Assembly (NCBI GenBank): GCA_025355995.1
Contig: JANXYQ010000096.1
Location: forward strand, 1-64,000
Source of the DNA: Spirochaetaceae bacterium
GTDB taxonomy: Bacteria > Spirochaetota > Spirochaetia > Treponematales > Rectinemataceae
Direction: 5' to 3'
DNA: 64,000 bases
Below the pieces are notes generated by a model. It saw only the letters and a list, made by a program, of their open reading frames with translations, made no database searches and was not told the DNA's origin. This document shows, in pieces, positions 1 to 18,478 of the stretch; the first letter of the stretch is position 1; the number at the start of each line of letters is the position of its first letter. The position numbers and the translations under genes were made by a program.

Positions 1-2
1 AT

Positions 3-346: not shown

Positions 347-436
347 GGAGACAACTCTCCTAGAACTTGTCACTTCCCTGGTAAGGTATCTTTTCGCTAC
401 TCCCCGTGGACGGTTTCTCATTGTATTGTAGGGGAT

Positions 437-3223
437 ATGTATACCCCAAGTGAGCTAAAAAGAAGAGCGCTCGACTTTTCCCGAGAACATGTGACAGATA
501 GTGACGAAAAGTCCCAGGCACAAACTTACTGGCGGGACTTCTTCGCCATCTTTGGTCTTACTCCACAGCGGATCGGCGTTTTTGAGGCGCGGGCGAAGAC
601 TCTCAAGGGCACGATAGGTTTCATCGACTTCTTTTGGCCCGGTACCCTCCTCGTGGAGCATAAGAGCCGAGGAAAGGACCTCGAGGCGGCTCTCAAACAA
701 GCTCTCGACTATTGCTCGAGCAGCGGCCTTAAGGATACGGAGCTCCCGCGTTTCATCGTAGTATGTGACTTCGCTAGATATATCATCGTCGAGCTCGCAA
801 CAGGGGAACGCTCGGAGTTCCCACTCGAGGAGCTCCACGCCAACCTCCACCGCTTCAACTTTATCCTCGGCTATGAACAGCGGACGTACAAGGACGAGGA
901 CCCGGTCAATATCGAGGCCGCCGAGCTCATGGGCAAACTCCACGACGAACTTCGCCGCGTCGGATACGAGGGACACCCGCTCGAGCTCTTCCTTGTCCGT
1001 CTCATGTTTTGCTTCTTCGCCGACGATACAGGCATCTTCCAAAAAGACCAGTTCGGCGATTATATCGAAGCCAGGAGTCGCGAAGACGGCTCGGACCTCG
1101 GGCAGACCATAGCCGAAGTTTTTCGCGTCCTCGAGACCACCCCGGAGAAGCGTCTCCAAAATATCCCCGAGGACCTCGCCGCTTTTGCCTACGTGAACGG
1201 GGGCCTTTTCGAGGAGGCGGAGGCCCCGCCCTACTTCGACAAAGGATCAAGGGCCATTCTTCTTCACTGCGCCCGCTTCAACTGGAGTTCAGTGAGTCCC
1301 GCGATTTTCGGCTCCCTCTTTCAAAGCGTCATGGACTCGGAAGAGCGCCGCTCACTTGGCGCTCACTACACTAGCGAGAAAAACATCCTCAAGACTGTGC
1401 ATGGTCTTTTCCTCGACGAGCTTGAGGCCGAGTTTCAGGCCTCCGCGAAACGTCGAAGCGAGAAGAACCTCAATGCACTTCTCGATCGTATCGCCGGCAT
1501 TCGTCTCCTTGACCCGGCGTGTGGCTGCGGCAACTTCCTCATCCTCTCATATCGTGAATTGCGGCGTCTCGAGATTCGTATTCATTTCGAACTCCGAAAG
1601 CTCTCAGGTGACAGGGGCTTACTCCTCGATGTTGGAGAGAAACGGGGTATTACTGTAGACCATATCTACGGTATCGAATACTGCGAGTTTCCTTCTCAGA
1701 TAGCACGTGTGGCCCTCTGGATCATGGACCACCTCATGAACGTCGAGTTATCCGCAACACTCGGCGGGTATCGCCCCTCTATCCCTCTCACGACGAGTCC
1801 CACTATCGTCCGGGGCGACGCTCTGCGTCTCGACTGGAGAGAAATCGTAAGCCCTGAGGAGCTGACCTATCTTCTAGGGAACCCCCCGTTCAGAGGGAAG
1901 CAATTCAGGACCGATGAGCAGAACGAGGGCATGGCCCTTGTTTGTGAGGGAAGAATTGAGAGTTATGGAATTCTGGATTTCGTTGCGACCTGGTATGTCA
2001 AGGCCGCAGAGTATATTCAAGGTTCGAGAATACGTTGCGCCCTTGTTTCTACGAATTCGATAACACAGGGCGAACAAGCCGGGACGCTATGGCCTTTCCT
2101 CTTCTCGCGTGGAGTTTCAATCGATTTCGCCCATAGGACATTCAGATGGACGAATGAGGCTTCCGGGGCAGCAGCAGTCTTCGTTGTCATCATCGGATTT
2201 TCACTTAAGGGTACAGGTCGCCGCCCCGCGATCATCCACGACTATAGTGATCCTGACGCCGAACCCGTCGCGCTTGAGGCTAACAATATCAATCCTTACC
2301 TCGTTTCAGGGCGTGATATTGTCGTGACTTCGAGGACTACTCCAATTTGCGATAGAGTACCTTCTATCTCATTCGGTAATATGCCCAACGATGGAGGCTA
2401 CCTACTCTTCTCTGAAGATGAACGCAGAGAATTTCTTGTCCTTGAGCCTGGAGCGGAGAAGTATTTTCGACTATTTGTAGGCAGTGAGGAGTTTATCAAC
2501 AAGATAAAACGATACTGTCTTTGGCTTCTCGATGCTGATCCTAGTGAGCTGAAACGGCTTCCGGCAGTCCTTGAACGAATCGAGGCGGTCCGCAAAGTGC
2601 GAAGCGGAAGCAAGCGAGAAGCAACAAGGAAACTTGCCGCAACACCGGCGCTCTTTGGAGAGATCAGACAGTCAAGTGAACCCTATATCGCTATACCCAA
2701 GACATCGTCAGAGCGACGTCAATATATACCGATCGGGTTTCTCAAAGAGGATGTTATCACTTCAACGGAACTTTTCATGTGCCCCGGTGGTGGGCTTTTC
2801 CATTTTGGCATTCTCGAGAGCGCTATGCATATGGGCTGGATGCGCCAAGTATGCGGGCGACTGAAAAGCGACTATCGCTATTCAAACAATCTTGTTTACA
2901 ATAACTTTCCTTGGCCAACGTCCCCTGCCGCGGAGAAAGTATCCATCGTCGAATCTGCTGGCAAGGCCGTTCTTGAGGCTCGCTCGAAGTTCCCGGACTC
3001 CTCCCTTGCGGACCTCTATGACCCCCTCTCTATGCCCGCGATCCTCGTGAAAGCCCACAAAGCTCTCGACGTGGCGGTTGACAAGTGCTACCGCTCAACT
3101 TCGTTCAAGAGTGAGCTAGAGCGGGTCGAATACCTATTTGGTTTATACGAGGAGTACACGTCGGCGTTAACCGCTGGGGCGGCGGTAGCAGAAGCGAGAC
3201 CAAGAGCAAGACGAAAGTCATAG
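437..3223 (+). CDS. MmeI-like (class IIL) bifunctional restriction-modification enzyme
   Basis: This 928-residue single-chain enzyme probably methylates adenine on one strand of its site and cuts at a fixed distance. The N-terminus has the MmeI nuclease pattern D-x9-E-x-K (Asp64, Glu74, Lys76). A helical spacer follows, then a gamma-class N6-adenine methyltransferase core with motif I LDPACGCGNF at 358-367 and motif IV NPPF at 482-485. The target-recognition region should lie around 600-830, with a helical tail. Length and domain order match MmeI. The gene is clearly lower in GC than its neighbours, which suggests transfer. Start: ATG at 437 after AGGGGAT. The nuclease residues look intact, so it is more than a lone methylase. 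Its recognition sequence cannot be read from the DNA. Confidence 0.88.
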   Translation: MYTPSELKRRALDFSREHVTDSDEKSQAQTYWRDFFAIFGLTPQRIGVFEARAKTLKGTIGFIDFFWPGTLLVEHKSRGKDLEAALKQALDYCSSSGLKDTELPRFIVVCDFARYIIVELATGERSEFPLEELHANLHRFNFILGYEQRTYKDEDPVNIEAAELMGKLHDELRRVGYEGHPLELFLVRLMFCFFADDTGIFQKDQFGDYIEARSREDGSDLGQTIAEVFRVLETTPEKRLQNIPEDLAAFAYVNGGLFEEAEAPPYFDKGSRAILLHCARFNWSSVSPAIFGSLFQSVMDSEERRSLGAHYTSEKNILKTVHGLFLDELEAEFQASAKRRSEKNLNALLDRIAGIRLLDPACGCGNFLILSYRELRRLEIRIHFELRKLSGDRGLLLDVGEKRGITVDHIYGIEYCEFPSQIARVALWIMDHLMNVELSATLGGYRPSIPLTTSPTIVRGDALRLDWREIVSPEELTYLLGNPPFRGKQFRTDEQNEGMALVCEGRIESYGILDFVATWYVKAAEYIQGSRIRCALVSTNSITQGEQAGTLWPFLFSRGVSIDFAHRTFRWTNEASGAAAVFVVIIGFSLKGTGRRPAIIHDYSDPDAEPVALEANNINPYLVSGRDIVVTSRTTPICDRVPSISFGNMPNDGGYLLFSEDERREFLVLEPGAEKYFRLFVGSEEFINKIKRYCLWLLDADPSELKRLPAVLERIEAVRKVRSGSKREATRKLAATPALFGEIRQSSEPYIAIPKTSSERRQYIPIGFLKEDVITSTELFMCPGGGLFHFGILESAMHMGWMRQVCGRLKSDYRYSNNLVYNNFPWPTSPAAEKVSIVESAGKAVLEARSKFPDSSLADLYDPLSMPAILVKAHKALDVAVDKCYRSTSFKSELERVEYLFGLYEEYTSALTAGAAVAEARPRARRKS

Positions 3224-3288
3224 GGGGGAGCAGGGCAAGTGAAAATAGGACATATCAAAAAAGATCGACGACAGCTTTGGAGGCGCCA

Positions 3289-3825
3289 ATGGGCAAAAGA
3301 TCGGTTCTAGCATTTCTCGCCGTTGCCCTTTCTCTCTTTGTCTCTGCTGAACCACCTGCGACGCCTTCCTCGGCTGTTATATGCGAAGTCGGATTCTCCC
3401 CCGGTGGGACCGCCGTCAAGCTAGTCCTCGACGTCATAGGTTCGGCGAAGTCCTCGATCCTCGTCGCCTGCTACAGCTTCACGAATCGCGATATCGCGGA
3501 GGCCCTAGAAGCCGCCGCACATCGTGGGGTCAAGGTCCGGATTGTCGCCGACGACGGCGCGGCAAAGGACAAGTATTCTCAAGTTCGGATCGTCTCGGGG
3601 GCGGGAATCCCGGTGCGCCTCGCAACGCGATACGCGATCATGCATAACAAGTTTATGGTGATCGACGGTGCAACGGTCGAGACGGGGAGCTTCAACTATA
3701 CGGCGGCGGCCGTGAAGTCGAACGCAGAGAATGCGTTCGTTATCCGAAACGCCCCGGATATCGCGAAGGTCTACGCGAGCGAGTGGGCTAGGTTATGGGA
3801 CGAGGCGAAGGGGCAAGGAAAGTAG
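3289..3825 (+). CDS. Secreted single-HKD phospholipase D-type nuclease (Nuc-like)
   Basis: A 178-residue protein begins with a signal peptide (basic MGKR, hydrophobic stretch to about residue 18, cleavage near VSA-EP). It carries one HKD motif, His119-x-Lys121-x4-Asp126, followed by GSFNYT at 133-138. This is the layout of the Nuc/plasmid endonuclease group, which is active as a dimer with one motif per chain. I chose ATG 3289 because GGAGG at 3279-3283 sits 5 nt upstream; an in-frame TTG at 3277 would overlap that site. It should act in the periplasm or outside, on DNA or possibly phospholipid. It follows the MmeI-type gene by 65 nt and may share its transcript. Confidence 0.8.
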   Translation: MGKRSVLAFLAVALSLFVSAEPPATPSSAVICEVGFSPGGTAVKLVLDVIGSAKSSILVACYSFTNRDIAEALEAAAHRGVKVRIVADDGAAKDKYSQVRIVSGAGIPVRLATRYAIMHNKFMVIDGATVETGSFNYTAAAVKSNAENAFVIRNAPDIAKVYASEWARLWDEAKGQGK

Positions 3826-3837
3826 GTTGTGGGATTT

Positions 3838-3868
3838 AGGTAGGACTATCAGAATGACAGCCCTACCT
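3838..3868. terminator. Hairpin between convergent genes
   Basis: Perfect 7-bp arms AGGTAGG (3838-3844) and CCTACCT (3862-3868) enclose a region that can extend the stem with two mismatches. The hairpin sits exactly between the stops of the PLD gene (3825) and the minus-strand YjzC-like gene (3874). Neither flank has a strong T-run, so termination is plausible rather than certain. Confidence 0.4.
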
Positions 3869-3873
3869 CTTGC

Positions 3874-4038
3874 TCATTTCTTGTGCTTGGTGGGATCAAC
3901 AAGAACATGCTTCTGTCCTGGCTGGGCGGTCGGAGGAGCTGGTTTACCTTTCACCAGGGTTGTCTCTTTCCCGCCCGGATTGGTGTACTGCCCTGATTTA
4001 GGGACAGGCTGGCCAGGTTTGACGGTAGTCTTTGCCAT
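3874..4038 (-). CDS. YjzC-like small protein
   Basis: The product is 54 residues, rich in Lys, Pro and Gly, with the pattern KPGQPVPKSGQY ... KGKPAPPTAQPGQ ... VLVDPTK. This resembles the widespread small YjzC-type proteins (PF14168), whose function is not established. Support for a real gene is strong: AGGAAGG about 8 nt before the ATG, and a consensus sigma-70 promoter some 60 nt upstream. The codons are unlike the very GC-rich neighbours. It is shorter than 60 codons and is easily missed. The family assignment is from memory of the repeating GQY / KGxPxPP / LVD pattern and should be checked by profile search. Confidence 0.75.
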   Translation of the reverse strand: MAKTTVKPGQPVPKSGQYTNPGGKETTLVKGKPAPPTAQPGQKHVLVDPTKHKK

Positions 4039-4098
4039 GCTATGTACCTTCCTAGAAAAGATTAGCTCCTCAAAAAAGAGAAGCTGTTACTGAAATAT

Positions 4099-4127
4099 GA
4101 TATAGCAAAAAGCAGAATACTTGTCAA
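4099..4127 (-). promoter_or_regulatory. Sigma-70 promoter for the YjzC-like gene
   Basis: Reading the minus strand, the -35 is TTGACA (4122-4127), the spacer is 17 nt and the -10 is TATATC (4099-4104). The predicted leader is about 54 nt and contains the AGGAAGG ribosome binding site. The AT-rich stretch beyond it (4128-4249) holds no gene I can support. Confidence 0.7.
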
Positions 4128-4249
4128 GTGTAACCACCGTATGTAGTAGCAGATGGACGATACCACTACGACATATAGATTATATACTTAGTCATATATA
4201 TGCTGTCATAGAGGCTATAGACGATACACTCAAGCTTTTTAGGACCGGA

Positions 4250-4735
4250 TTAGGGCTTATCAAAAAAGGGATGTACGACAGTCCTATTCACAAGACCGAC
4301 TGAAACCACTCGGGCTGCGATGAGCTCATGCGCGCCGTTGAGGCTGCAGCAAATGAAGCGCTCCTGCTTGCGGTCGGCCCAGTGGGAGACGATGGGCCAG
4401 AGGTCGGCGGGCGAGGAGATCTTGCGGTCGCGGGTGCCGTAGAGCCTGCGGCCCAGCTCGAGGGCGGCGCAGACGGCGCAGGCCTTGGCGCCACCGATGC
4501 CCGCGAGGCGAGCGAGCATTTCCGCATCTGGCGCTCCCTTCGGAGAATCCAGCAGGCAGAGGACTTCCTCCGCCAGATCGCGGACGCCCTTGCCTCGCAT
4601 GCCCGTGCCGAGGAGGGCGGCGAGGAGCTCGGCGTCGGAAAGGGAGGCTGCTCCCTCAAGGGCGAGGCGCTCGCGGACCTGAGGTTGGGCGGCTGCGGCG
4701 CGCCTGCCTGAGTCGTACAGGGTATTTTGGGGCAT
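4250..4735 (-). pseudogene. Truncated radC, copy 1
   Basis: The 161 residues match the N-terminal part of RadC family proteins: RERLALEGAASLSDAELLAAL, a helix-hairpin-helix with GIGGAKA, ALELGRRLYG, then the start of the JAB/MPN domain through NGAHELI and VNRTVVHP. The frame ends at FFDKP, before the HxHPSGD metal-binding motif that every catalytic RadC/JAMM domain needs. The N-terminal half is intact, with GGAGG before ATG 4735. Copies 2 and 3 (9889-10060, 13060-13329) end at the same codon, so this is one truncated ancestor that was copied. It cannot be a working JAMM peptidase; the helix-hairpin-helix part might still fold. Confidence 0.8.
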
Positions 4736-4868
4736 GAGGGCCTCCGATGACTTACGACCGAGGTAGAGCCTCTCGATTGAAGGAAGACCGATAAACTCGA
4801 GCAAACGTATTGGATTCATCCGAACGATGTTTCTCCGCGATTTCGCGAGAAATCCACAGCATGGTTAG

Positions 4869-4911
4869 TTGACATTGTTGGAAATAAACCATATGATTTA
4901 TCCATATGGTT
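4869..4911 (+). promoter_or_regulatory. tetR promoter with overlapping palindromic operator
   Basis: The -35 is TTGACA (4869-4874), the spacer 17 nt and the -10 TATGAT (4892-4897). A perfect inverted repeat with 9-bp arms, AACCATATG (4887-4895) and CATATGGTT (4903-4911), covers the -10, the predicted start site and the ATG at 4906. This is a typical position for TetR autorepression. The -10 ends 8 nt before the ATG, so the transcript is probably leaderless. A weaker hairpin lies upstream at 4830-4852. Confidence 0.8.
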
Positions 4912-5535
4912 GATAAAATGAGCATAGACAGGAACGCAGCCAGCGCCAGTCGGATCAAAGAAGCTGCAAAACAGCTCTTCCTCGACAAGGGCTACGATGG
5001 AACGACCATGCAAGCCATCGCAGACGCAGCAAAGGTCAATAAAATGCTTTTGCACTATTATTTCCAAAACAAAGACAACCTTTTTCTCCTGATCTTCGAC
5101 GAGGAATTATCGGAACTCACTGATTTTCTGGCAACGGTCTGGCAGATGGACGATTGCACGCTCCTTGAGCAGCTCGACAACTGGATCGATTCCCTGGCCG
5201 CCTTCGTTGCCCGCAATCCGCAGCTTCCCCTCTTCCTTATTACCGAGATGACCCGAAATCCCGACCTAATCAATAAGCTCTTTACAGATTTCCGAATGCC
5301 CCCGCAGATCTTAGGGCCAAGGGACATTGAGTCCGAACCGATGTCGGACATGCCCGTCCGAGTTCAACTCGTCGGGACTGTATACTCGCTTCTTTTCTTT
5401 CCTGCACTATCGGCGCCGCTCAGCAAACGTCTCCTCGACGTTGATTCTTCAATCCTCGAAAAGCTCAAAGCCAGCCACGTGCGACTCGCGAAAGACTTGG
5501 CGCGACGGATGCTGAATGGATCGACATTCCCATAG
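4906..5535 (+). CDS. TetR/AcrR family transcriptional repressor
   Basis: This 209-residue protein has a TetR N-terminal helix-turn-helix: RIKEAAKQLFLDKGYDGTTM, then IADAAKVNKMLLHYYFQNKDNLF, about residues 17-62. The C-terminal half is the variable ligand-binding region. The start is ATG 4906, with 4918 as the alternative. Neither has a Shine-Dalgarno sequence, and 4906 fits a leaderless message from the promoter just upstream. It leads an operon with an RND-type exporter, a LolA-like protein and an outer-membrane barrel. It probably represses that operon and itself through the palindrome at 4887-4911. The inducer is unknown; a lipid or hydrophobic compound would fit the cargo genes. Confidence 0.9.
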   Translation: MVDKMSIDRNAASASRIKEAAKQLFLDKGYDGTTMQAIADAAKVNKMLLHYYFQNKDNLFLLIFDEELSELTDFLATVWQMDDCTLLEQLDNWIDSLAAFVARNPQLPLFLITEMTRNPDLINKLFTDFRMPPQILGPRDIESEPMSDMPVRVQLVGTVYSLLFFPALSAPLSKRLLDVDSSILEKLKASHVRLAKDLARRMLNGSTFP

Positions 5536-5582
5536 ACCGCCGACTCGGTTTTCGACAACTCGATTAACTTGGAGGTGGATAA

Positions 5583-7835
5583 TTGCATCGATTGATGGAA
5601 GCGCTTTTCAGGCGCAGCTGGTGGGTGGTGGCGTTCTTCGTTCTCGCGAGCGTCTTTGCGGCCGTCGGTGCGATGCGCCTCCATGTCGACCACTCGACGG
5701 ACTCGTTTTTCCCCAAAAATAACCCAATTATAAAAGAGAGTCGCCAGGTTCAGGAAATGTACGGCACAGGAAAGAACGAGATAGTCGTCCTTTTTGCCTC
5801 CGATATCTTCGAGCCGGCTCGGCTCGACAAGGTCCGAGCCCTGACCGCGGCCCTTCAAAGCATCGATGGCGTTATTAAGGTCACATCGCTGACCAATGCG
5901 CCGAGGATGCGAGAGGAGGGTGGCATCCTCCTTACAGAAGATATGGTGCCCACCGACTCGCTTAGCTCTAGCCAAATCGCGGGGATCAAGGACTACCTGG
6001 CTTCCAACTATGCCATGAAGGACGGCCTCCTCGCGGCAAAGGACAAGAGCTCGAGCACCCTTATGATAAAGATCGATCCAGCCTTCAAGCTGGAGGCCAT
6101 GAGCCTGAAGATCGATGAGGCAATACGGGCCAACTGGAAGGAACGCTACGAGGCGACCGGAGAGCCGGTGCTCTCGGCGGCGATAGTGAGGATCATGCAG
6201 GGCGTACCGGCAATGGCCCTAGTAGCCCTCTTCGTCATCCTAGCCTTTTTCCTCGTCAACTTCCGTTCCCCCCTCGGAATCCTCATCCCCCTCGTACAGC
6301 TTCTCGTCAGCATATTATGGAGCATAGGCTTCCTCGGCTGGTGCAGAATCAACTTTCTTGCTCTCATGGCCGTCGCTCCCATCGCCATCCTCGCCGTCGG
6401 CTCCTCTTTCTCCCTCCATCTCCTGGGTCGTTATTTCCTGGAAATTTCCCAAGGGCGTGCGAAGGCGGACGCGATTCGAACAATAATCGGTAAAACCGGA
6501 CTTGGAGTCTTGGTCTCGGGTCTAGCCATTTCGGCCTCCATGCTTACCTTCCTCCTTTCGGAAAGCGAGATGATCCGCGGAATGGGACTCATGACCGCCG
6601 TAGGCATACTAACCTGCATGTTTGCCTCCCTCGTCCTCCTCCCTGCCCTCCTCAATCTCCTGCCCGCGCCCAAGGTCAGGATGCGCGGCGAGAAGGACGC
6701 CGGCGTGAGCCTCCGCCTGCGCCGCCTCGGCACCTTCATCGGCAGGTATCCCAAGCCCATCCTCGCGATCGGAGCCCTCCTCACGCTCCTCTCCCTTGTG
6801 GGCATATTCAGGATCGTCCCCGACTCCTCGCTCGTCGCGTATTTCCCCAAGGACTCCGCAGCCATACGCAGCATGTACGCTATCGAGAAAGTTCTAGGCG
6901 GCTCAACTACGGTGAATATGGTCGTCGATGGAGATTTTCTTGATCCGGAGCTGATAAAAGGCCTTCTCCTGTTCCAGGAGAAGGGGCGTTCGATACAAGC
7001 GGTCGGTTCGATTCAATCCCTGGCCACTATTCTGCGCAGCCTCCACGAAACGCTTTCGGGAGAGGCGGGCTTGCCGGCGACGCGCGAGCTCGTAGCTCAG
7101 GAGCTCCTCGTCTACCAGGCCTCGGGCTCGGTGAACGACATCAGCTCCCAGGTCAACCTCGATTACTCTCAGGGCCTCGTCACCATATTAATACAGCGGA
7201 CATCCACCGGCCAAACGAGGGCCATTATTTCGAAACTCGGAGCGCTCGCTAAGGAGACGCTCGGCGACAAGGCCACGATTCGGTTCACGGGCGATGCAGT
7301 CATCTCGTTGTTGAACGAACGGCTCGTCCTTAGGGACTTCGTCATCTCGCTGAGCCTCGCGATTCTCCTGGTACTTATGATCGACACCATGATCAGAAGC
7401 TTTCGGGCGGCCCTCATCACCATCATTGTCCTATTCTTCACCATCGTGCTGCAGTACGGCGTCCAGGGCCTTTTCGGACTGACCTTCAACATGGCTTCCG
7501 CCCTCATGGGCGCCTTGGCGATCGGCGTCGGGGATTACGCGATACACCTGACGGTCAGGTACATGGAGGACTGTCAGAAAGGTCTCAGCCCCGAGAAGTC
7601 CATAGAAGAAGCCATCGCTACCACGGGCAGGTCGATTTTCTATACATCCCTCACCCTGGGGGGCGGATTCGCCGCGCTCACCTTCTCGCCCTTTGTGCCG
7701 GTGGCGACTCTGGGCAAGCTCATGGTATTCACCGTCTTCGCCGTTGGTATCGCGTCCCTGACCATCCTGCCGTCGGCCTGCCTCGTTTTTCTTCGCAATC
7801 CCATCAAGAGCAGAATGGAGGTTTTCCATGAATAG
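5583..7835 (+). CDS. RND/MMPL-family transporter
   Basis: The 750-residue inner-membrane protein has two repeats. In each, one membrane helix is followed by a large periplasmic loop and a five-helix sterol-sensing-like bundle (bundles about 205-355 and 575-740). FFPKNNP near residue 43 and YFPKDS near 422 mark the two equivalent loop starts. This is the MMPL/HpnN-like exporter layout, shorter than the tripartite AcrB type. The start is TTG 5583, because GGAGGTGG at 5571-5578 is correctly spaced for it; ATG 5595 is the alternative. The gene lies 47 nt after tetR and overlaps the next gene by 8 nt. With the LolA-like and barrel proteins it probably moves a lipid or hydrophobic molecule towards the outer membrane. 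Confidence 0.88.
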   Translation: MHRLMEALFRRSWWVVAFFVLASVFAAVGAMRLHVDHSTDSFFPKNNPIIKESRQVQEMYGTGKNEIVVLFASDIFEPARLDKVRALTAALQSIDGVIKVTSLTNAPRMREEGGILLTEDMVPTDSLSSSQIAGIKDYLASNYAMKDGLLAAKDKSSSTLMIKIDPAFKLEAMSLKIDEAIRANWKERYEATGEPVLSAAIVRIMQGVPAMALVALFVILAFFLVNFRSPLGILIPLVQLLVSILWSIGFLGWCRINFLALMAVAPIAILAVGSSFSLHLLGRYFLEISQGRAKADAIRTIIGKTGLGVLVSGLAISASMLTFLLSESEMIRGMGLMTAVGILTCMFASLVLLPALLNLLPAPKVRMRGEKDAGVSLRLRRLGTFIGRYPKPILAIGALLTLLSLVGIFRIVPDSSLVAYFPKDSAAIRSMYAIEKVLGGSTTVNMVVDGDFLDPELIKGLLLFQEKGRSIQAVGSIQSLATILRSLHETLSGEAGLPATRELVAQELLVYQASGSVNDISSQVNLDYSQGLVTILIQRTSTGQTRAIISKLGALAKETLGDKATIRFTGDAVISLLNERLVLRDFVISLSLAILLVLMIDTMIRSFRAALITIIVLFFTIVLQYGVQGLFGLTFNMASALMGALAIGVGDYAIHLTVRYMEDCQKGLSPEKSIEEAIATTGRSIFYTSLTLGGGFAALTFSPFVPVATLGKLMVFTVFAVGIASLTILPSACLVFLRNPIKSRMEVFHE

Positions 7836-8610
7836 CAACGGTTGTCTCAGGAGGTCCCTCGCGGCCACAATGGTCGCGGCGACCCTCGTTTGCTGGTCCG
7901 TCTCGGCCCTCCCTGCCCAGGCCGCGCTCTCGGGCCAGGAGGTCATGGACAAGGTCTACAACAGCCCAAAGCCCAAGGGCTCGGTGCTCACGATGTCGAT
8001 GATCATCACGAAGAACAAGAAGAGCCTTACTCGCACGCTCACGACCTGGACGACCGGGGATGCCGTCAAGGGCGAGACCGAGAAGACCCTTATGAAGTTC
8101 CTCGCCCCGGCGGACGTGAAAGGCGCGGGCTTCCTCAACCTGAAGAAGCCTGACGGCGCGACCGAGAGCCTCCTCTGGCTCCCCGCCCTCGGCAAGGTGA
8201 GACGCCTCGGCTCGGGCGCCTCCGACCAGGACCAGGCTTTCTTCGGCTCGGATTTCACGAACCGCGACATCAACGGCTTTGTCCACGCGGACTTCAGCTA
8301 CGTGGTCGACTCTTTCGTGAATGGCATTTATACGATAACGGCTACTCCGAAGAAGGCTCTCGGCTACGAGAAGCTCGTCTATCAGGTCGACTCGGGTACC
8401 TGGAAGTACCTGAAGATCGATTACTGGCGCGGCGGCAAACTCGTGAAATGGCAAACCGATGCCTACGACAAGGTCCAGGGTTATGACATGCCCACAAAGA
8501 TCGTCATGAGCTCGGCCATCGGCTCCTCGACGGAACTGCGATTCACCGACTACAAGCTGGACCAGGATCTGGGCGACCAGTATTTCACCGAGCGATTCCT
8601 GAAGCAGTAA
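7828..8610 (+). CDS. LolA-like outer-membrane lipoprotein-sorting family protein
   Basis: A 260-residue periplasmic protein with a signal peptide (hydrophobic to about residue 31, ending ALPAQA). Features of the LolA-like family (PF17131) are FLAPADVKGAGFL near residue 90, a LLWLPALGKVRRLG strand near 115, and FFGSDFTNRDI near 140. Members fold as a half-barrel that shields a lipid or lipoprotein and are usually next to MMPL/RND genes, as here. The ATG overlaps the stop of the exporter gene, so translation is coupled. It is likely the periplasmic carrier of this export system; its cargo is unknown. Confidence 0.85.
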   Translation: MNSNGCLRRSLAATMVAATLVCWSVSALPAQAALSGQEVMDKVYNSPKPKGSVLTMSMIITKNKKSLTRTLTTWTTGDAVKGETEKTLMKFLAPADVKGAGFLNLKKPDGATESLLWLPALGKVRRLGSGASDQDQAFFGSDFTNRDINGFVHADFSYVVDSFVNGIYTITATPKKALGYEKLVYQVDSGTWKYLKIDYWRGGKLVKWQTDAYDKVQGYDMPTKIVMSSAIGSSTELRFTDYKLDQDLGDQYFTERFLKQ

Positions 8611-8623
8611 GTAGGGGCTGGAT

Positions 8624-9808
8624 ATGAAAAGAGCTGCAACGTTCCTTATTCTTTCGGCTCTCATCGCAGTAGGTCCCGCCCTCGGCGCCCAAGATTTATC
8701 CGGCAGCCTGGAAAGCCGGTTGGGTTGGTATTGGGGAAAGGCCAATCTCCTCCCCCAGACGCAGATTTTCGCAGGCTCTCTGGATGGCAAGGTCGGAGAT
8801 CAGGACCAGCCCGTGGCCCAGTACTCGGGGAAGCTCGAGGTCGCCTATGATCCCGCGACCGCTACGACTTCGGTCGCTCTAGAGGAGGCGTGGATCAAGC
8901 TTCTCGCCGGCCCCTTCGACCTCTCCTTCGGCAACCAGGTCGTTGCCTGGAGCGTTTCCGACGCCTTCAACCCTTCCGATATCGTGAATCCCGTCGACCT
9001 CAGCCTCCCCGTCGATCCGATCAAGATGCCCGTGCCGATGGGGCGGATCGTCTACAACGGGAATGGCCTAACAGTCGACCTCGTAACCCAGCCCTACTGG
9101 GTCGCCCCGAAGCTCCCCGCCGAACCTTGGGCAGCGTCTTCTCCCCTGCCAACGAGCTTCGAGGCTATCGGCTCGACCTGGGAGAACACAGCCTTTGGTG
9201 GGCACGTTAAGGCGAGTTTCGGGCTGCTCCAGGGCTTGGATCTCGGCTTAACAGCGTATCGTGGCCGCACCTACACCCCAACTTCGACCCTCAACTTCAC
9301 GGGGATGATGCAGACTTCGGTCACCCTCGCCTACGACCGACTCACCTACGTCGGCGTCGACATCGTCCTGGCGCCCGGAGCCGGAGTGCTGCTTAAGACC
9401 GAGTGGGGCTACAGGACCCTCCGCGACTCGAGCCTCCTCGAGCCGGAAGCTGGCGCCGCATCCCTGCAGGGGGTCTCGGGCTTCGAGTACAACCTAGCCG
9501 GAGTGCAGCTCATCGGCGAGTACGTCCTCAATTTGGCCAAGGGCGCCGCGGCCGTCGGCGACAGCTTAACGCACACTGTCGTCGGCATCGCCTCGGTGGA
9601 CATCGGTAGCAGGCTCAGCCTCAGGGCGGCTGGTGTCCATGAGTTCAAGGGCAGCAGCGGCATGGTCGCGCCTCAGCTCTCCTATACCCTGGCTGACGGA
9701 CTTAAGCTGAAGGGAGAGCTGTTCTTCTTCTATGGGGAATCGGATACGACCTACGGCGACTGGTCGGGGAATTCGCTCGGACGGGTGTCTTTGAACTACG
9801 CGTTCTGA
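8624..9808 (+). CDS. Outer-membrane beta-barrel protein of the RND operon
   Basis: The 394-residue product has a signal peptide (MKRAATFL ... ALGA), then alternating amphipathic strands with aromatic girdles, and ends in a Phe residue (NYAF) typical of outer-membrane barrels. The segment VSDAFNPSDIVNPVDL near residues 115-130 resembles DUF1302-type and related barrels that accompany MMPL/LolA-like pairs. It starts 13 nt after the LolA-like gene and is the last gene of the operon, followed by a hairpin. It probably provides the outer-membrane step of the export route. The exact family is uncertain; the barrel topology is clear from the strand pattern and C-terminus. Confidence 0.75.
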   Translation: MKRAATFLILSALIAVGPALGAQDLSGSLESRLGWYWGKANLLPQTQIFAGSLDGKVGDQDQPVAQYSGKLEVAYDPATATTSVALEEAWIKLLAGPFDLSFGNQVVAWSVSDAFNPSDIVNPVDLSLPVDPIKMPVPMGRIVYNGNGLTVDLVTQPYWVAPKLPAEPWAASSPLPTSFEAIGSTWENTAFGGHVKASFGLLQGLDLGLTAYRGRTYTPTSTLNFTGMMQTSVTLAYDRLTYVGVDIVLAPGAGVLLKTEWGYRTLRDSSLLEPEAGAASLQGVSGFEYNLAGVQLIGEYVLNLAKGAAAVGDSLTHTVVGIASVDIGSRLSLRAAGVHEFKGSSGMVAPQLSYTLADGLKLKGELFFFYGESDTTYGDWSGNSLGRVSLNYAF

Positions 9809-9810
9809 CT

Positions 9811-9836
9811 TGTTCGCCCTGCGTATCGGGCGAGCA
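9811..9836 (+). terminator. Possible terminator of the RND operon
   Basis: A 9-bp stem, TGTTCGCCC (9811-9819) with GGGCGAGCA (9828-9836), contains one G-U pair and an 8-nt loop, two bases after the stop region of the barrel gene. No T-run follows, so it may only stabilise the 3' end. Confidence 0.4.
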
Positions 9837-9888
9837 GATTAGGTACTGCTGGGGAATAAACACCTTAGGTGATAATAGACATAAAATA

Positions 9889-10060
9889 GGCCTTATCAAA
9901 AAAAGAATGCACGACCGTTCGACTCACGAGTCCGACCGATACGACCCGCGCGGCGATGAGCTCGTGCGCGCCGTTGAGGCTGCACTAGATGAAGCGCTCC
10001 TGCTTGCGGTCGGCCCAGTGGGCGACGATAGGCCAGACCTCCCCCGGCGAGGCGCTCGCG
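9889..10060 (-). pseudogene. Truncated radC, copy 2 (fragment)
   Basis: On the minus strand this stretch matches copy 1 from the segment before VWPIVAHWADRKQERF through the start of the JAB domain to SRTVVHSFFDKA, and stops at the same point. The helix-hairpin-helix half is missing. It lies directly after the 3' end of the propeller-SH3 pseudogene on the same strand. Similarity to copy 3 continues about 20 nt past the coding break (both have AAGGCC, then a T-run, then CTATT). This supports duplication of a larger unit. Confidence 0.75.
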
Positions 10061-10078
10061 CACGGCGGAATCGCCCTG

Positions 10079-12998
10079 TTATTTCTCATACCTCAGGTAG
10101 CGACCGTAGCTCCAGCCCTCGAGACCGTCCGAGAGTCGCCGCACGAGATACCAGTAATCGCTCCAGCCCTCGACGGTCATTGTCTAGGCGCTTTTGTCCA
10201 ACACTTCGAGCTTATCGCCATTGGCGAGGTAGCCGGCGGTTCCGGCCTCGAGATCCGGTTTGACCCTGACACGCACCCTCGCATTGGTACACTCGGCGAG
10301 TTTGAGGGCTCCGCCGATTCCCGAGTAGTCGATCGACGAATAGCTCGCGATGGCACTGGCGGAGAAGGCGGTCAATGGCCTGTCGACAACCATTAGGTCA
10401 GCTGGAATCGTTGAGGAAAGGGAGGTCGGCATCCTCTGCATGGGCGATCCTCCCTCCTGAAGCGACGGTGCGGAGGCGGGACGGAGCCTAGCAAGGAAGG
10501 GTTTGTCATATCGAGGTTTCCCTTCTGGCAGCCAGCGGGATCGGCATGCCCCGCCGTATAGAGAAGCTCTCCCGAGGCGATGAAAAGAGGCTTGAGGTCC
10601 ACGGTATCCTGAAGCGAGACTCCCCACCGCTCTGCGCCGTCTACGTCGATCGATTTGAGGTTCGTAAGCGTGGCGTCGTCCCTGCCGGGCTTGTCGTTCC
10701 AGCAAATCAGGAAACCGCCGTCCGGGCTAGCCATCGCGCTCCTCATGAGTTCGGCGCGGCTATTCTGGAAATACCACTGTCCCGAAAGCGTGCCCTTCCC
10801 ATCCAGGGCGAGCATTCCGAGTTCCGCCGCGCCGTCCTTGCGCAGCGAGCCGCTCCTGAATAGCACCCGCAGGCTGCCTTGGGTCGGGGATGCGCAGAGC
10901 GCTTCGTCATCCCCGGAGGCGCCGATCCGCCTCTGCCACGAGAGCTTCCCCGCGGCGTCGAGCCTCGCGACGAGGATGTCCCGGCTCGCCGAGGCTTTCG
11001 CGCGCTCGTTGGCCACGAGGTAGGCTCCGCCGTCCTGCGCCGCGACGATGTCCACCGGTTCCTCGAGGCCGGAGCCCGCGAGGGTCTTGATCCACTGAGG
11101 CCTGAGATCGCCGTCGATCCTCGCGACCAGGATGCCGGGGCGCGCGAGGTCCCAGGATTGCGTCGCTGCGAGGTGGAAGTAACCGTTCCCCGCGACAGGG
11201 ACGAGCTTCGCCGGTCGATCCATAGTCCCGCCGCCGATCATGGCGGCCTTTTTAATGCCAAGGCTAGAGTCGAGTTTTGCGATGAAGACAGCCAAGCCTT
11301 GATCGCCTTGCCTCGCGCTCCCCAGCGCTAGTACGCTGCCGTCCTCCGCTCCGAGCAATTGAACGCCGGTCGTGTCAGAGCCCATGTCCAGGAACGACTT
11401 CCCTAAAACGCCCCCATCCAGCCCGAGCTTGAGGAGTAGAATGCCGGCGGAATTGTCAGCCACAGCCTCCATCGTTATCAGGCTATCCTTGCCCAACTCC
11501 GCTGCGGAGGCAGGGAGATAGTAGGGCAAATTTCGCGCGCCGCCCGAGACCGAATACCACGCGGCCAAGTCCGCCCCGGCGATGGGCGGCATGACCTTCG
11601 CTTCAACCGCGAGGGCCTTGATCGAGGAATAGTCCTTGCCATCCTCGCGGGTTTTACCGTTCGTGTTCAGCAGCCAGGCATCCTCGGTGCTCGCGGAAAC
11701 GGGGAAGGCCCTCAGTTCCCTTGGGGCTTTCGATGTAAGTTCCTATAGGCCCGCTATCGCCCTTCGGCTCTCGCGGACCGAAGCTGGCCTTCATGTTAAC
11801 GATGGGAGGCGCTTCGGGCCGGCAAGCCCACGTCGGGATCGGTCCGTCGAAGATGCCCGCCATGACGAGGCAGGAATCGCCGGCAGCCGCGATGGAGAGG
11901 CGGTTGCTACCGGCTTCGTAGAGCCTTTGCATGAAGTCGGCGCGCAGGTAATCCGCTGCGCTCCTCTGCTCCACGATCTTGCCATTGGGATCCGTAACAA
12001 CCGCGTCGCCGAGCCCCAAGACCATCGCGAGATGGCCGTCAGGGAAGCGGGTCGCGGCAACCAAGGCCCTCGGTGCGTCGCCATTCGTCTTGGGCTCGTA
12101 GCCCCTGCCCCAGAGGTACTCTCCGGACTTATCCACGCGCAGGAGATAGGCTCCCTCCCGATCCGGCACGTTGGACGAGCGGTCGTCGATTGCCGTTATG
12201 GCAGCCGTATAGCCGTCCTCGGTATCCGCCGCGAAGATAGTCCTGCCCTTGAAACCTAGGTAGGCATGGGACCATTCCACGCTACGGCTAGCATCGACCT
12301 TAATCAAGACGGGGACCGAGCTTGGATTCGCGTATATGAGCAGGCCACCGTCCCGGGTTGATATCAGGCCCTCGTATTCGAAACTGTTAGAATCCTATTG
12401 CAGCCCCGATGCATTGGCGCCGAGAATGGCGGGCTTAATCTGCGAGCCGGAGAAGGGGAAGCCGTCGCGATCCAGGTATATGAGCGTTCCCGGATTGACC
12501 AGGAGCGGCGCTAGCGTACCGTTTGCGAACTCCGCCATCCGCGCGGAGCCTTCGAACGGCGGCCATCCGAGAGCCCTGGACCAGAGGATCTTGCCCTTCG
12601 AGTCCAGGCGATACGTCTCGAGACTCCCTTGGACGTCTTCTCCCGCCACTCCCGTTACCTGGCTGTATCCCAAGCGAGCGATACAGCCAGCCACCCTCCC
12701 CGTCGGCCGTCTCGATGAAGGCGTAGGGAACGTCGTCGGCCGGCGAGCCGACCGATGTCGCCCATAGGCAATTTCCGGACGAATCGAGCTTGACGACGCA
12801 TGCGTCGCGCATCCGATCCGGGAACCTGGCGCTACCGAGGAGAAGGGAGCCGCCGTCCTTGACCGACACTAGTCCCTTGAGCTCCAGACCCTTACCTTCC
12901 GAGACGAGTTTCGAGAATTCCTGAGAGCCGACTGTAGTCTGAGGGCAGATCGCTCCGATGAGCGCGGCTGCAAAGATCGCGTCGAATCTTCTTTCCAT
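10079..12998 (-). pseudogene. Decayed secreted beta-propeller protein with C-terminal SH3b domain
   Basis: The minus strand encodes a signal-peptide start (MERRFDAIFAAALIGAI at 12998) and then many copies of a propeller-type repeat (forms such as DILVARLDAAGKLSW followed by GASGDDEA) spread over several reading frames. The frame shifts near 12.6, 12.35, 11.65 and 10.5 kb. The 3' end is a bacterial SH3 domain with an in-frame TAG at 10184-10186, after which the same frame continues through GWSDYWYLV and GWSYGRYL to a TAA at 10079. The original product was probably about 950 residues, exported and envelope-associated. It is now non-functional as one protein, although the 399-residue frame 10393-11592 remains open. 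Confidence 0.75.
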
Positions 12999-13059
12999 GG
13001 CGGTTTCTTCAAGGTTATTAATATATCACGGTATCGATTGGAGAAATAGGCCAAAAACG

Positions 13060-13329
13060 GGCCTTGTCAAATAAAGGATGAACGATAGTGCGGTTCGCGA
13101 GGGCCGCCGAGACAACGGGGGTTGCTATGAGTTTGTGCGCCCCATTGTGGCTGCAGCAGATGAAGCGTTCTTGCTTGCGGGCGGCCCAGTGGGAGACGAT
13201 GGGCCAAACTTCGGATGTAGGGGATATTTTCTTGTCCCTGACGCCATAGTGCCTCCGGCCTAGCTCGAGGGCTGCGCATGCGCCCGAGCCCGCGCGTCGC
13301 GCCGAATCATAAAATGATTTTTGGGGTAT
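13060..13329 (-). pseudogene. Truncated radC, copy 3 (internally deleted)
   Basis: The minus strand reads PQKSFYDSARRA, then jumps straight to ALELGRRHYG and continues through WPIVSHWAARKQERF to ANRTIVHPLFDKA. The helix-hairpin-helix region present in copy 1 is therefore deleted. The start codon has become ATA (13327-13329). The 3' break point is identical to copies 1 and 2, before the JAMM residues. It lies about 60 nt upstream of the propeller pseudogene on the same strand. The remaining 12999-13059 holds only that pseudogene's AT-rich upstream region. Confidence 0.75.
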
Positions 13330-13422
13330 GTGAACTTCCCGAAATATACGCGCTAGTATCGGGCCGTGATGAAAATGGAATCGCCGCTAGAAAATCCGAT
13401 GTGCGAAAAACGGAGACTGCTG

Positions 13423-13428
13423 TATAAT
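13423..13428 (+). promoter_or_regulatory. -10 element of the DUF4129-MoxR operon
   Basis: A perfect TATAAT ends 10 nt before the ATG at 13439, and there is no Shine-Dalgarno sequence. The -35 is poor (GTGCGA with 16 nt spacing is the best I can find). The position suggests a very short or absent leader. Confidence 0.5.
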
Positions 13429-13438
13429 TGCGCTCACG

Positions 13439-14311
13439 ATGACCAAATCGGCGAAGCGATGGTCGCTCATCTTCTTCTCGATCGCCCTGTTACTGACGAG
13501 CGCTATCGCCGCCGGCCTGGACTCCCTCGGTTTCTCCCTGGGGATGCCGTTCCCCGAGGCCGAGGTCCAGGGTTCGACGCTGGTGGTCCAGCAGAAGGAC
13601 AGCCGCCTCGATCTACCGATCAACCGAGTAATCGGTCTCGCTTTCCTGGTTCCCATCGCTGCGACCATCCTGTACGCGGCGATACGAATGGTCATGGGGA
13701 TGGACTGGAAGGGCTTGAGGCGCTACCTGACCAAGGCCATTTTGGCCGTTGCGGGCATCGTGGCCCTCGTCTTCCTCGTCTTCCGTTCCTTTCCCCGAGG
13801 CTCTCCGCGAAGCAAGGACTCGTTCCTCATCCCGCCGCCCCCGCCGCGATTCGCCAAGACTTCCCCCCTCGGGGCGCCGCCGGGGATACTCGTCTGGCTG
13901 GCGGCGATCGCCGTCGCGTCGCTCGCGCTGGCCCTAGCCTGGCGGCTCCTGGCCAGGAAGGGCGAGCCGGGCGACGCTCTGAGCCCGATAGGGATGGCGG
14001 CAGGGGAGGCCCGGCAGGCCCTCCTCGAGGGGAGGGATTTCAAGGATACCATCACGCGCTGCTACCGGAGGATGAGCCGCGAGATGGAGATAGACCGCGG
14101 CATCGAGCGGATGGCGTCGATGACAGCCCGCGAGTTCGAGGAACTGCTCGCCCGCGGGGGGATTCCGATCGAAAGCGTCCATCGCCTAACGTTGCTCTTC
14201 GAGAAAGTGCGATACGGCGACTTCGAGCCCACCTCCGCGGACGAAGCTGAGGCCGTGGCTTGCCTGGATGCGATCGAAGCCCATTCGCGAGAAACCGGCG
14301 GGGAGCCATGA
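13439..14311 (+). CDS. DUF4129 domain membrane protein
   Basis: A 290-residue inner-membrane protein. Hydrophobic segments lie near residues 9-27, 62-82, 97-118 and 145-167. The C-terminal cytoplasmic part has the DUF4129 pattern: ALLEGRDFKDTITRCYRRM near 197, MTAREFEELL near 227, and VHRLTLLFEKVRYGDF near 245. DUF4129 proteins are nearly always encoded with MoxR ATPases and DUF58 proteins, as here, in a system thought to assemble or regulate envelope proteins. The gene heads the operon and overlaps the next by ATGA. It starts without a ribosome binding site, 10 nt after a TATAAT. Confidence 0.8.
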   Translation: MTKSAKRWSLIFFSIALLLTSAIAAGLDSLGFSLGMPFPEAEVQGSTLVVQQKDSRLDLPINRVIGLAFLVPIAATILYAAIRMVMGMDWKGLRRYLTKAILAVAGIVALVFLVFRSFPRGSPRSKDSFLIPPPPPRFAKTSPLGAPPGILVWLAAIAVASLALALAWRLLARKGEPGDALSPIGMAAGEARQALLEGRDFKDTITRCYRRMSREMEIDRGIERMASMTAREFEELLARGGIPIESVHRLTLLFEKVRYGDFEPTSADEAEAVACLDAIEAHSRETGGEP

Positions 14312-14955
14312 GAGCTGCCAATCGCGTCCTGGCCCTGTTGCTCATCGGCGCCCTCCTGGCGCTCGCCGCCATCCTGTTCGGCCCCTTCCTCTCGGTGGTC
14401 GTCCTCGCGCCCCTCGCAGGGCAGCTTTGGGGCTTCCTGCGGATTTTCATCCTTTGCTTGAACCAGGAAGAGCTCTGGTCCTACGTCGTCCTGGCCCTCT
14501 TCGTGTTCCTTTGCTACCGCCTGCTCCGAGCCCTCGCGGCGGCCTCCCCGGAGCTCGCGCCGGAGCGGGGAGGCCGGGATGCGAATACCGCGCTCGGCGA
14601 GCTGGAGTATTGGCGCTACATGTTCGCCAAGCCGCCGCGCGACGAGCGAGAGAGGGTACTATGCCGGCGCGAGCTCGCGCGGCTCCTCGTCTCGGCCTAC
14701 TCGACGAGCAATCGCGTCGAGGCGAACTTCGAGTTGCTCGAATCCTTCAGGTCGGGACGGATCGCCTTGCCCGAGACCGTTCACGAGCTCCTCTTCGGAG
14801 GGGCGGGGGATGCGCGGACCCCGAGGGGCGCGCGGAGACTCGGGGTCTGGCTGCGCCGCGCTTCGGGCCGAGAAGGGGCCGACTATCGAAAAGCCATCGG
14901 GGAGTACCTCGATTTCGTAGCCTTCCAAATGGAGATGGTCGATGACGAACGATGA
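14308..14955 (+). CDS. Membrane protein of the MoxR-DUF58 operon
   Basis: A 215-residue protein with two hydrophobic segments (about residues 5-40 and 54-73) followed by a charged cytoplasmic domain with no motif I recognise. ATG 14308 overlaps the TGA of the upstream gene (ATGA), and its stop lies past the start of moxR. It is therefore a tightly coupled member of the operon. Homologues in this position are usually uncharacterised; an adaptor between the membrane and the MoxR ATPase is a guess from context. Confidence 0.7.
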   Translation: MRAANRVLALLLIGALLALAAILFGPFLSVVVLAPLAGQLWGFLRIFILCLNQEELWSYVVLALFVFLCYRLLRALAAASPELAPERGGRDANTALGELEYWRYMFAKPPRDERERVLCRRELARLLVSAYSTSNRVEANFELLESFRSGRIALPETVHELLFGGAGDARTPRGARRLGVWLRRASGREGADYRKAIGEYLDFVAFQMEMVDDER

Positions 14956-15931
14956 ACGAGAGCGCATGACTATCGAGGGCGTCGCGGGAGCCGCGGCGCG
15001 CGTGATCGCCGAGGTCGAGAAGGTCGTAGTCGGTAAGCGCGAGCTCCTCCAGCAGATGATGGCGGCCTTCCTCTCGCCGGGCGGGCACATCCTCCTCGAG
15101 GACTACCCGGGGCTCGCCAAGACGCTGATCGCCAACTGCTTCGCCGAGGCCTTCGGGATGAGCTTCAAGCGGATCCAGTTCACGCCCGACCTCCTTCCCG
15201 GGGACATTACCGGTGGCTACGTCTTCGACGGTGGCCAGAATAAATTTTCGCTCCGGAAAGGCCCGATCTTCACGAACGTCCTCCTCGCCGACGAGATCAA
15301 TAGGGCTTCGCCGAAGACTCAGTCGGCGCTCCTGGAGGCCATGCAGGAAAATCAGGTGACCCTCGAGGGCGAGACCCTGGCCCTGCCCCGGCCGTTCGTC
15401 GTGGTGGCGACGCAGAACCCGATCGAGTACGAGGGAACCTTCCCTCTCCCCGAAGCCCAGCTGGACCGCTTCATGGTCAGGCTCTCCATCGGCTATCCCT
15501 CTCCCGAGGATGAGACCGAGATCCTCAGGCGTCGCATGGCGAATCGGCGGGACCGAGCCGAGATCGAGGCCGCGTTGGATCCGGAGTCCTTCCTCGCCAT
15601 GCGCGAGGCCATCGAGTCCGTGCACGTCGATCCGGACTTGAGCCGCTATATCGTCGAGCTCGGCGTACGCTCGCGCTCCTTTCCCAAGGTCGTCGTGGGC
15701 TCGAGCCCGCGGGGCTCCCTCGCCCTGCTTAAGCTGGCCAGGGCCTGGGCGGCTATCCAGGGCAGGAGCTACATAATTCCCGACGACGTCAAGCGCTTCG
15801 CCCAGGCGGCCCTAGCCCACCGCCTGGTCCTGGACTCGAGCCTCTGGGACGTCCGCCGGTCCGAGAACGGGATAGTCGACGGCATACTCCGCGCCGTTCC
15901 GGTACCGATGCTCGCGAACGATGCGCGGTAG
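14942..15931 (+). CDS. MoxR-family AAA+ ATPase
   Basis: A 329-residue AAA+ protein (AAA_3 with AAA_lid_2). The Walker A is the MoxR variant EDYPGLAKT (53-61), Walker B is LLADEIN (113-119), the sensor region ATQNP is near 160, and EAQLDRF follows near 176. MoxR ATPases act as chaperones in maturation of large complexes, usually together with DUF58 and vWA proteins. ATG 14942 overlaps the upstream gene by 14 nt; an in-frame ATG at 14966 (MTIEG) is possible. The next gene overlaps by 11 nt. Confidence 0.92.
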   Translation: MTNDERERMTIEGVAGAAARVIAEVEKVVVGKRELLQQMMAAFLSPGGHILLEDYPGLAKTLIANCFAEAFGMSFKRIQFTPDLLPGDITGGYVFDGGQNKFSLRKGPIFTNVLLADEINRASPKTQSALLEAMQENQVTLEGETLALPRPFVVVATQNPIEYEGTFPLPEAQLDRFMVRLSIGYPSPEDETEILRRRMANRRDRAEIEAALDPESFLAMREAIESVHVDPDLSRYIVELGVRSRSFPKVVVGSSPRGSLALLKLARAWAAIQGRSYIIPDDVKRFAQAALAHRLVLDSSLWDVRRSENGIVDGILRAVPVPMLANDAR

Positions 15932-17213
15932 CCGAGCGAAGGCCCTCGGGCTCCTGGTAATCGTCCTCCTCCTCGCCGCCCTGGCGTTCCGCAACGGCGC
16001 CCTCGCCTGGATGTGCTTGCCCCTGATGTCCTATCTCGGGCTCGGCCTGCTCCTGGCGCCCGTCCGCGAGGACCTGCGCCTTCGCGCAAGCCGCCGCTGC
16101 GAGGAAAGCAGGGGGGCGGGAAGCTCCTCGATAGAAGTCATCCTCCGTCTCGAGAACGAAGGCCGAAGGAGAATTCGCCTTCTCGTCATCGAGCCCCGCC
16201 TGCCGGGCATGAAGGTCGCCGAGGACGCGCTGTTCCTTCGCGTGGATCTGGAAGCCGGGGCGGGAACCGAGCTGCGTTACACCTTCGAAGCTAGGCGAGG
16301 CCGCTTCCGCTGGGAATCCCTGCGCGCGCTGGCCGGGGACCCCTTCGGCCTCTTCGAGGTCGAGACCCTCGTCGAGGCCGGCTGCGAGATCCTCGTCCAG
16401 CCGCATTATCGAAGGATGCCCTCCATTCCATTGCGCCTCGCGAAGACTCTCTCGTCGCCGGGATCGATTCCCATCCGGCTCGGCGGTAGCGGGACGGACT
16501 TCTGGGGCATTCGCGAGTATCGGCAGGGCGATCCCCTGCGGCGTCTGTATTGGCGGCTCAATGCGCGCGATCCATTGCGTCGCTACACCAAGGAATTCAT
16601 TCAGGAGAGAACGGCCGAAATCATCCTCATCCTCGACGGCCGCGAGCGGATGGAGCTGGCCGTCGGCGACGAGAGCATCTTCGGGCGGGAGGTCGAGGCG
16701 GTAGCCTCCCTGGCCGCGATGCTCATCCGGCAGGGCCAGCGCGTCGGACTGTTCATCATCGGGACCGTGGGCCGGAGCGTCATGCCCGATTACGGCAGGA
16801 TACAGCTCCGAAGGATCCTCAATTGCCTGGCCGAAGTCCAGCCCGAGCGCGAGGGATCGCGCAACGCACTTCACTACTTGCCTGCCCTGCGCTACTCGAG
16901 GAGCACCTTCATGATAATAGTAAGCCCCTTCGCCAAGGACGACGATTCGGTCTTCCAGCGGCTGCGGGCCTTGGGCTATCAGGGAATCTTGGTCAGCCCG
17001 GACGCCCTGGACTTCGCCCGCGGCTCGACGGCGGGCGACGCGTCGACTGCCTTGGCACGCAAGGCCTGCCGAATCGAGCGCAAGATCGAGCTCGACCGGA
17101 TCGCCGAGCTCTCATTCCCGGTCCTCGATTGGCGAGTCGGGGAGGACCTCTCGGGCCTCATCGAGGCGCGGCTCCGGTTGGCGGGCCGAGCGGCCGCGGG
17201 GAGAGGATCATGA
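15921..17213 (+). CDS. DUF58 domain protein
   Basis: A 430-residue protein with two N-terminal hydrophobic segments (about 8-25 and 28-47), a beta-rich region, and the DUF58 signature GTDFWGIREYRQGDP with LRRLYWR about residues 190-215. A vWA-like fold follows (EIILILDGRERM near 235). DUF58 proteins partner with MoxR ATPases. The MIDAS-type sequence is incomplete (DGRERM rather than DxSxS), as in many members. It overlaps moxR and the next small gene at both ends. Confidence 0.85.
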   Translation: MRGSRAKALGLLVIVLLLAALAFRNGALAWMCLPLMSYLGLGLLLAPVREDLRLRASRRCEESRGAGSSSIEVILRLENEGRRRIRLLVIEPRLPGMKVAEDALFLRVDLEAGAGTELRYTFEARRGRFRWESLRALAGDPFGLFEVETLVEAGCEILVQPHYRRMPSIPLRLAKTLSSPGSIPIRLGGSGTDFWGIREYRQGDPLRRLYWRLNARDPLRRYTKEFIQERTAEIILILDGRERMELAVGDESIFGREVEAVASLAAMLIRQGQRVGLFIIGTVGRSVMPDYGRIQLRRILNCLAEVQPEREGSRNALHYLPALRYSRSTFMIIVSPFAKDDDSVFQRLRALGYQGILVSPDALDFARGSTAGDASTALARKACRIERKIELDRIAELSFPVLDWRVGEDLSGLIEARLRLAGRAAAGRGS

Positions 17214-17573
17214 GCAGGCATGCGCGCGAAGGCGCGAGCCTTTGGCTGGTCGCCTGCGTCCTCCTCGCCGCGCTGGGCATACTCCTCTCCGCTCCGCCCG
17301 CATTTATGATCGCGGGAACGGCGGCCGTCCTCGTCCTCTGGGATTTCGCAGGCGCTCGGCGGGGGGGGCTATATGCGCTCACGCCTACCCTACGCGCTTG
17401 CCGCCGTCGGTCTGGGTACGACGATCGCCATCGCAGGAGTCGGCATGCGGCTCGACCTGCCCTTCTTCGCCATGCTCTTCTGCGCCCTCGCCTGCGCCTT
17501 TTGTATCGATCGAATCGCGCGCGCAGCGTTTCCACGGAAATCTCGCCACCATAAAATGAACTTCCCGGAATAG
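17210..17573 (+). pseudogene. Small membrane protein interrupted at a G8 tract
   Basis: ATG 17210 overlaps the DUF58 stop. The frame encodes two membrane segments and then runs into GGGGGGGG at about 17361-17368. After it the natural continuation (MRSRLPYALAAVG, then two more membrane segments, ending HKMNFPE) is in another frame. Removing one G gives a single protein of about 120 residues with four membrane segments. As written, the frame continues into a low-complexity Arg-rich read-through. The cause may be slippage (phase variation), a real mutation or a consensus error. It is the last gene of the MoxR operon. Confidence 0.65.
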
Positions 17574-17577
17574 ATGC

Positions 17578-17606
17578 TTGACATAGCGAATAGTAATTGT
17601 TACAAA
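17578..17606 (+). promoter_or_regulatory. Promoter of the PaaX-like gene
   Basis: The -35 is TTGACA (17578-17583), the spacer 17 nt and the -10 TACAAA (17601-17606). The ATG at 17615 lies 8 nt after the -10 with no ribosome binding site, so the message is probably leaderless. A short ACAC/GTGT inverted repeat spans the start. Confidence 0.6.
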
Positions 17607-17614
17607 TACACGAT

Positions 17615-18469: not shown

Positions 18470-18478
18470 GGAGTAGAT

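Follow-up and report, generated by a model that had tools for sequence, protein, structure and literature searches.

Why does a single genome carry three copies of radC that all stop at the same codon? The window, i.e. the whole 64 kb stretch of DNA that was analysed, comprises the start of contig C94 of a spirochaete genome (G000; 4.5 Mb in 138 contigs, 95% complete). A preliminary description had reported three truncated radC copies on the minus strand with one common break, and had proposed that a pre-truncated radC was spread or duplicated together with cargo, possibly as the scar of a mobile or recombining unit.

Three radC 5' halves end at one codon

Alignment to the intact radC genes of relatives confirmed the common break. 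All three copies are cut at residue 161-162 of the same-genus reference RadC (L041, 237 aa), after Val-His-Pro and before Arg-Glu-Val (...NRTVVHP^REVFADP), where relatives continue with Arg-Glu-Val-Phe. The end had been placed after VHP(F/L)FDK; that it is shared holds true, but (F/L)FDK turned out to be translated tail, and the cut lies directly after Val-His-Pro. Copy 1 (4268-4735, minus strand) has an intact frame up to the break. Copy 2 (9904-10090, minus strand) contains two internal deletions and one TAG. Copy 3 (13075-13329, minus strand), which is nearest to the conserved rubrerythrin side, is the most decayed: ATA replaces ATG, and one internal deletion is present. Copies 2 and 3 keep their start-codon regions and are set apart from copy 1 by internal deletions; each therefore appears to have been a complete 5' half at one time. 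The full N-terminal half of copy 1 and the deletion in copy 3 had been recognised correctly, but copy 2, which had been taken for a fragment only, retains its start region too. A search of the entire genome for further or intact radC genes returned only these three 5' parts, and no radC 3' half was found in the G000 assembly.

The junction sequence adjoining radC is GTNSAYYCYTTWTWTRAYAAG. Tails follow copy 1 at 4251-4267, copy 2 at 9874-9903 and copy 3 at 13045-13074, all on the minus strand. The tail TTTTTTGATAAGsCCTA is identical at 16 of 17 positions between copies 1 and 2, a value reached in 0 of 2000 dinucleotide shuffles. By the same kind of shuffling, the likeness between the tails of copies 2 and 3 has p = 0.002, and that between copies 1 and 3, taken alone, is not significant (p = 0.15). 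The non-radC sequence beyond the break had been ascribed to copies 2 and 3 only. These two do share it, but copy 1 has the tail as well. Across 394 genomes of the order, a 21-nt junction pattern, derived from the three window copies and a fourth site in genome G003 (see below), matches without mismatch at these same four sites and once elsewhere; matches with one mismatch are about as frequent as those of a reversed control pattern. In IMG/VR, neither the radC half nor the junction pattern had a match, and a plasmid search with radC retrieved only distant RadC proteins.

The same break in another genus

The break was also sought in other genomes, since its absence there would have spoken against the reading of the preliminary description. 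It is present in G003, which belongs to another genus of the same family: radC is cut at the identical codon and followed by GTTGACCCTTTTTATAATAAG, an exact match to the 21-nt pattern. Taken alone, the likeness of this tail to that of copy 2 is weak (p = 0.07). About 30 bases past the break in G003 lies the coding sequence for a PLD protein C-terminus, in the same orientation as in the window, where the corresponding gene lies to the left of copy 1; the two C-termini are 87% identical over 30 aa. The G003 contig ends 117 bp beyond the junction, and no integrase was identified with it. radC is intact in two sister genomes, G001 from the same genus as G000 and G015 from that of G003, and neither yielded a match to the PLD protein at the threshold used. 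The idea of a mobile or recombining unit that is marked by a common radC break and has its cargo between the copies is supported, and the same break in G003 means that it withstood this check.

In G032, a genome from another family, radC ends within 2 codons of the same place and is followed by AT-rich DNA with a short resemblance to the tail of copy 2 (14 nt, p = 0.007). This break may be due to a different element. In all three genomes (G000, G003 and G032) the upstream side of radC is syntenic with relatives, and no radC 3' half was found in any of the three assemblies. A further interruption was observed in G057 (L117/L118 on contigs C65 and C101; L094), 17 codons further downstream and before HNHPSG. 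Here, both halves of radC were recovered, and a phage/plasmid-primase-like gene was read by eye, indicating a different element at a different site. As this interruption lies elsewhere in the gene and both halves are present, insertions of more than one kind occur in radC.

Divergence and decay of the three copies

Across their 48 shared codons, copies 1 and 2 are separated by 26 substitutions, of which 19 fall on third positions (binomial p = 4e-5). With dN 0.06 and dS 0.87, dN/dS is ~0.07, an estimate that, like the radC tree, rests on 48-56 codons. Nucleotide identity between the two is 82% and among all pairs 72-82%; the distance between copies 1 and 2 equals that to radC of other genera. 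In the weakly resolved tree, copies 1-3 and G005 group together with moderate support. By the pattern of their codon substitutions, copies 1 and 2 are shown to have been under purifying selection before truncation: as the differences are mostly silent, each spent most of its divergence inside a working radC. The spread or duplication of a pre-truncated radC is therefore unsupported, since copies 1 and 2 are biased towards silent sites and as divergent as genes from different genera. Descent of the common end from one truncated gene is disfavoured, and repeated use of one insertion site is preferred.

At 32 residues that are invariant in eight relatives, copy 1 has 0 changes, copy 2 has 2 (plus the stop) and copy 3 has 9. 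This means that decay rises towards the conserved rubrerythrin flank, which is the order expected if each arrival sits distal to the previous one and displaces the resident 5' half. A comparison of N-terminal and C-terminal halves among intact relatives revealed no supported conflict, and no chimeric radC was demonstrable among them.

The locus in relatives and the missing 3' side

In relatives, the gene order is rubrerythrin - radC - CoA-ligase - YdcF-like gene - 5S rRNA. Both in relatives and in the window, rubrerythrin/desulfoferrodoxin genes are located upstream of radC, which places copy 3 on the native side. In the window, ~10 kb (13366-25000, including a DUF4129 gene) separate copy 3 from the rubrerythrin cluster; in L041, this cluster is ~500 bp from radC.

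The radC 3' half and the neighbouring CoA-ligase gene are missing from both the G000 and the G003 assembly. In eight close relatives, contigs end 1-8 kb downstream of radC, in four of the eight within the 5S rRNA gene (L038, 15735-15845; L047, 14543-14654; L048, 11497-11608; L049, 6075-6174). Metagenome-assembled contigs of the family thus end at the 5S rRNA gene just past radC, which hides any insertion between the two. The missing segment would be a short contig between the element and the rRNA operon, so the absence of the 3' half says little.

Cargo of the three units and search for a recombinase

Unit 1, between copies 3 and 2, holds one decayed gene (10079-12998, minus strand) that ends at the start of copy 2. 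For its longest ORF, Pfam and NCBIfam gave no family at the thresholds applied; a beta-propeller, named in the preliminary description, and an SH3-like C-terminus were read by eye. The cargo of unit 2, between copies 2 and 1, is a single operon (4906-9808, plus strand) that encodes a TetR regulator, an MMPL/RND transporter, a LolA-like protein and a last gene for which no family match was obtained. A second copy of the entire operon, from TetR to the last gene, is present on contig C43 of G000 (L182, 7709-12584) and is 80% identical at the DNA level. An RND relative with 72% identity was detected in G015, and none in G001 at the threshold used. Unit 3 is cut off by the contig end. It comprises a 54-aa ORF (3874-4038, minus strand), which may be YjzC-like, a gene for a PLD-superfamily protein (Nuc/NucT-like; 3277-3825, plus strand) and, at the contig end and still inside the array, a complete gene for an MmeI-like type IIG restriction-modification enzyme (437-3223, plus strand). 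An IMG/VR scan with the PLD protein revealed three distant homologues.

When the ORFs of window positions 1-13400 were scanned, none of the three units yielded a recognisable recombinase; units 1 and 2 consist of cargo only, with neither integration nor transfer genes. No tyrosine recombinase was found on contig C94. Ten regions around tyrosine recombinase loci of G000, G003 and G032 were retrieved, and the loci scanned contained no copy of the tail in a scan that allows five errors and would miss divergence of the G003 kind. In G003 (L135, C50), an integron integrase gene (TIGR02249) was observed at a contig end, and behind it come an ORF and a sequence that by eye resembles attC (1724-3076 and 1-420). 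A similar integron integrase was read by eye in G032 (L140, C27; 5907-7391).

How the array may have arisen

The explanation that we favour, with a probability of roughly 60%, is that tandem site-specific insertions took place at one radC codon and that each unit brought a replacement 5' half which displaced the resident one. For site-specific integration at the Val-His-Pro^Arg codon boundary as such, confidence is high. In these spirochaetes, integrative elements would use this boundary as their insertion site. A circular unit would arrive with cargo and a complete radC 5' half, which extends from the start codon as far as the crossover and is followed by the element end, i.e. the tail. On integration, tail and cargo would become joined to the resident 5' half, and the incoming 5' half would fuse to the chromosomal 3' half. 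radC would stay whole, and the displaced old half would decay. Repeated rounds would yield the observed series: on the rubrerythrin side copy 3 as the oldest, with its tail and cargo, then copy 2 with its tail and the operon, and finally copy 1 as the newest, followed by its tail, the PLD and restriction genes and the contig end. Lacking a recombinase, units 1 and 2 may have been left behind in the manner of CIMEs or been moved as passengers in trans. We infer a recombinase, a circular intermediate, a restored radC and, past the contig end, an intact radC; the contig ends before any far junction of the array. An unlikely extension would be a cassette-like system, in which a trans-acting integrase stacks recombinase-free cassettes at one radC codon, each with a ~470-nt replacement 5' half. 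The host would then keep swapping half of its RadC, and the order of arrival would be recorded as decaying halves.

A break and a tail common to three copies in direct orientation could also go back to a single truncated radC plus tail that was subsequently multiplied by tandem duplication or travelled with cargo through homologous recombination. The grouping of copies 1-3 with G005 would fit such a single source, but a truncated copy is not expected to be under the selection that left copy 1 unchanged at invariant residues and made the differences between copies 1 and 2 mostly silent, with a significant departure from neutrality at a between-genus distance. Moreover, the radC locus of G003 itself bears this junction, so that a single truncated source is very unlikely. 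It is quite unlikely, too, that plain repeated disruption occurred, i.e. fixed-site insertions in several intact radC genes whose 3' halves were later deleted, with radC never restored. The lack of a radC 3' half in G000, G003 and G032 agrees with it; however, several tandem intact radC genes and the separate loss of every 3' half would be required, with no 3' remnant anywhere, and the contig break at the rRNA operon accounts for the missing distal part. Least probable are Campbell-type single crossovers, in which circular DNAs would recombine through the homology of their radC 5' halves and a site-specific recombinase would be dispensable. Units devoid of any recombinase are in line with this, and radC 5' halves could supply the homology, but copy pairs that are only 72-82% identical are poor substrates for RecA-dependent exchange, and both the first break and the recurrence of the junction in a second genus would be left unexplained.

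Relation to known systems

Tn554-like transposons integrate in radC (PMC3788773). Insertion of this family takes place after HNHPSGD, with a 6-bp core GATGTA at the left end (PMC7843796). Like the array, the family (Tn554, Tn558, Tn559, Tn5406, Tn6188) combines a fixed site in radC with truncation of the gene and varied cargo. Its members carry tnpABC and no radC 5' half, whereas in the array no tnpABC was recognised and radC 5' halves are present. Compared with the S. aureus and Listeria sequences, the Tn554 site HNHPSGD^(V/P) lies 27 codons downstream of the break at VHP, and a Tn554-family transposon was rejected on these grounds. ICEs and IMEs of Mesorhizobium also use radC as integration site and were reported adjacent to the gene (PMC8627217); in the array, no integrase was found.

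Tandem accretion of genomic islands with CIMEs is documented, and in such ICESt1-related islands direct-repeat att sites lie between cargo units that lack recombinase or transfer genes, as they do in the array (PMC5704250). Here, three radC halves with their tails flank the cargo like direct att sites at one target gene, and the interior of units 1 and 2 is free of integration and transfer genes. In CIME-type islands the repeat is usually a short gene end, whereas the target of the array is inside the gene and the repeated piece is a ~470-nt 5' half. Composite SCC elements of staphylococci resemble the array in their stacked insertions at one site and in their passive units, but their target is the 3' end of rlmH, they depend on ccr serine recombinases and their repeats are short. 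An integron cassette array was rejected as well: by eye, the junctions contain no attC-like sequence, the direct repeats are radC halves, and no tyrosine recombinase found in G000 reads as IntI.

As far as searches of literature and databases show, the site inside radC, the half-gene that is apparently borne by each unit and the three-layer stack are new. The array adds to the spirochaetes a radC-internal insertion site that is distinct from the Tn554 site, as well as a dated stack of insertions, in which the decay of the displaced half-genes reveals the order of arrival. Should it be confirmed that an element-borne half of a core gene restores that gene, mobile elements would drive the replacement of half a conserved protein, and such half-protein replacement could mislead gene trees and annotation.
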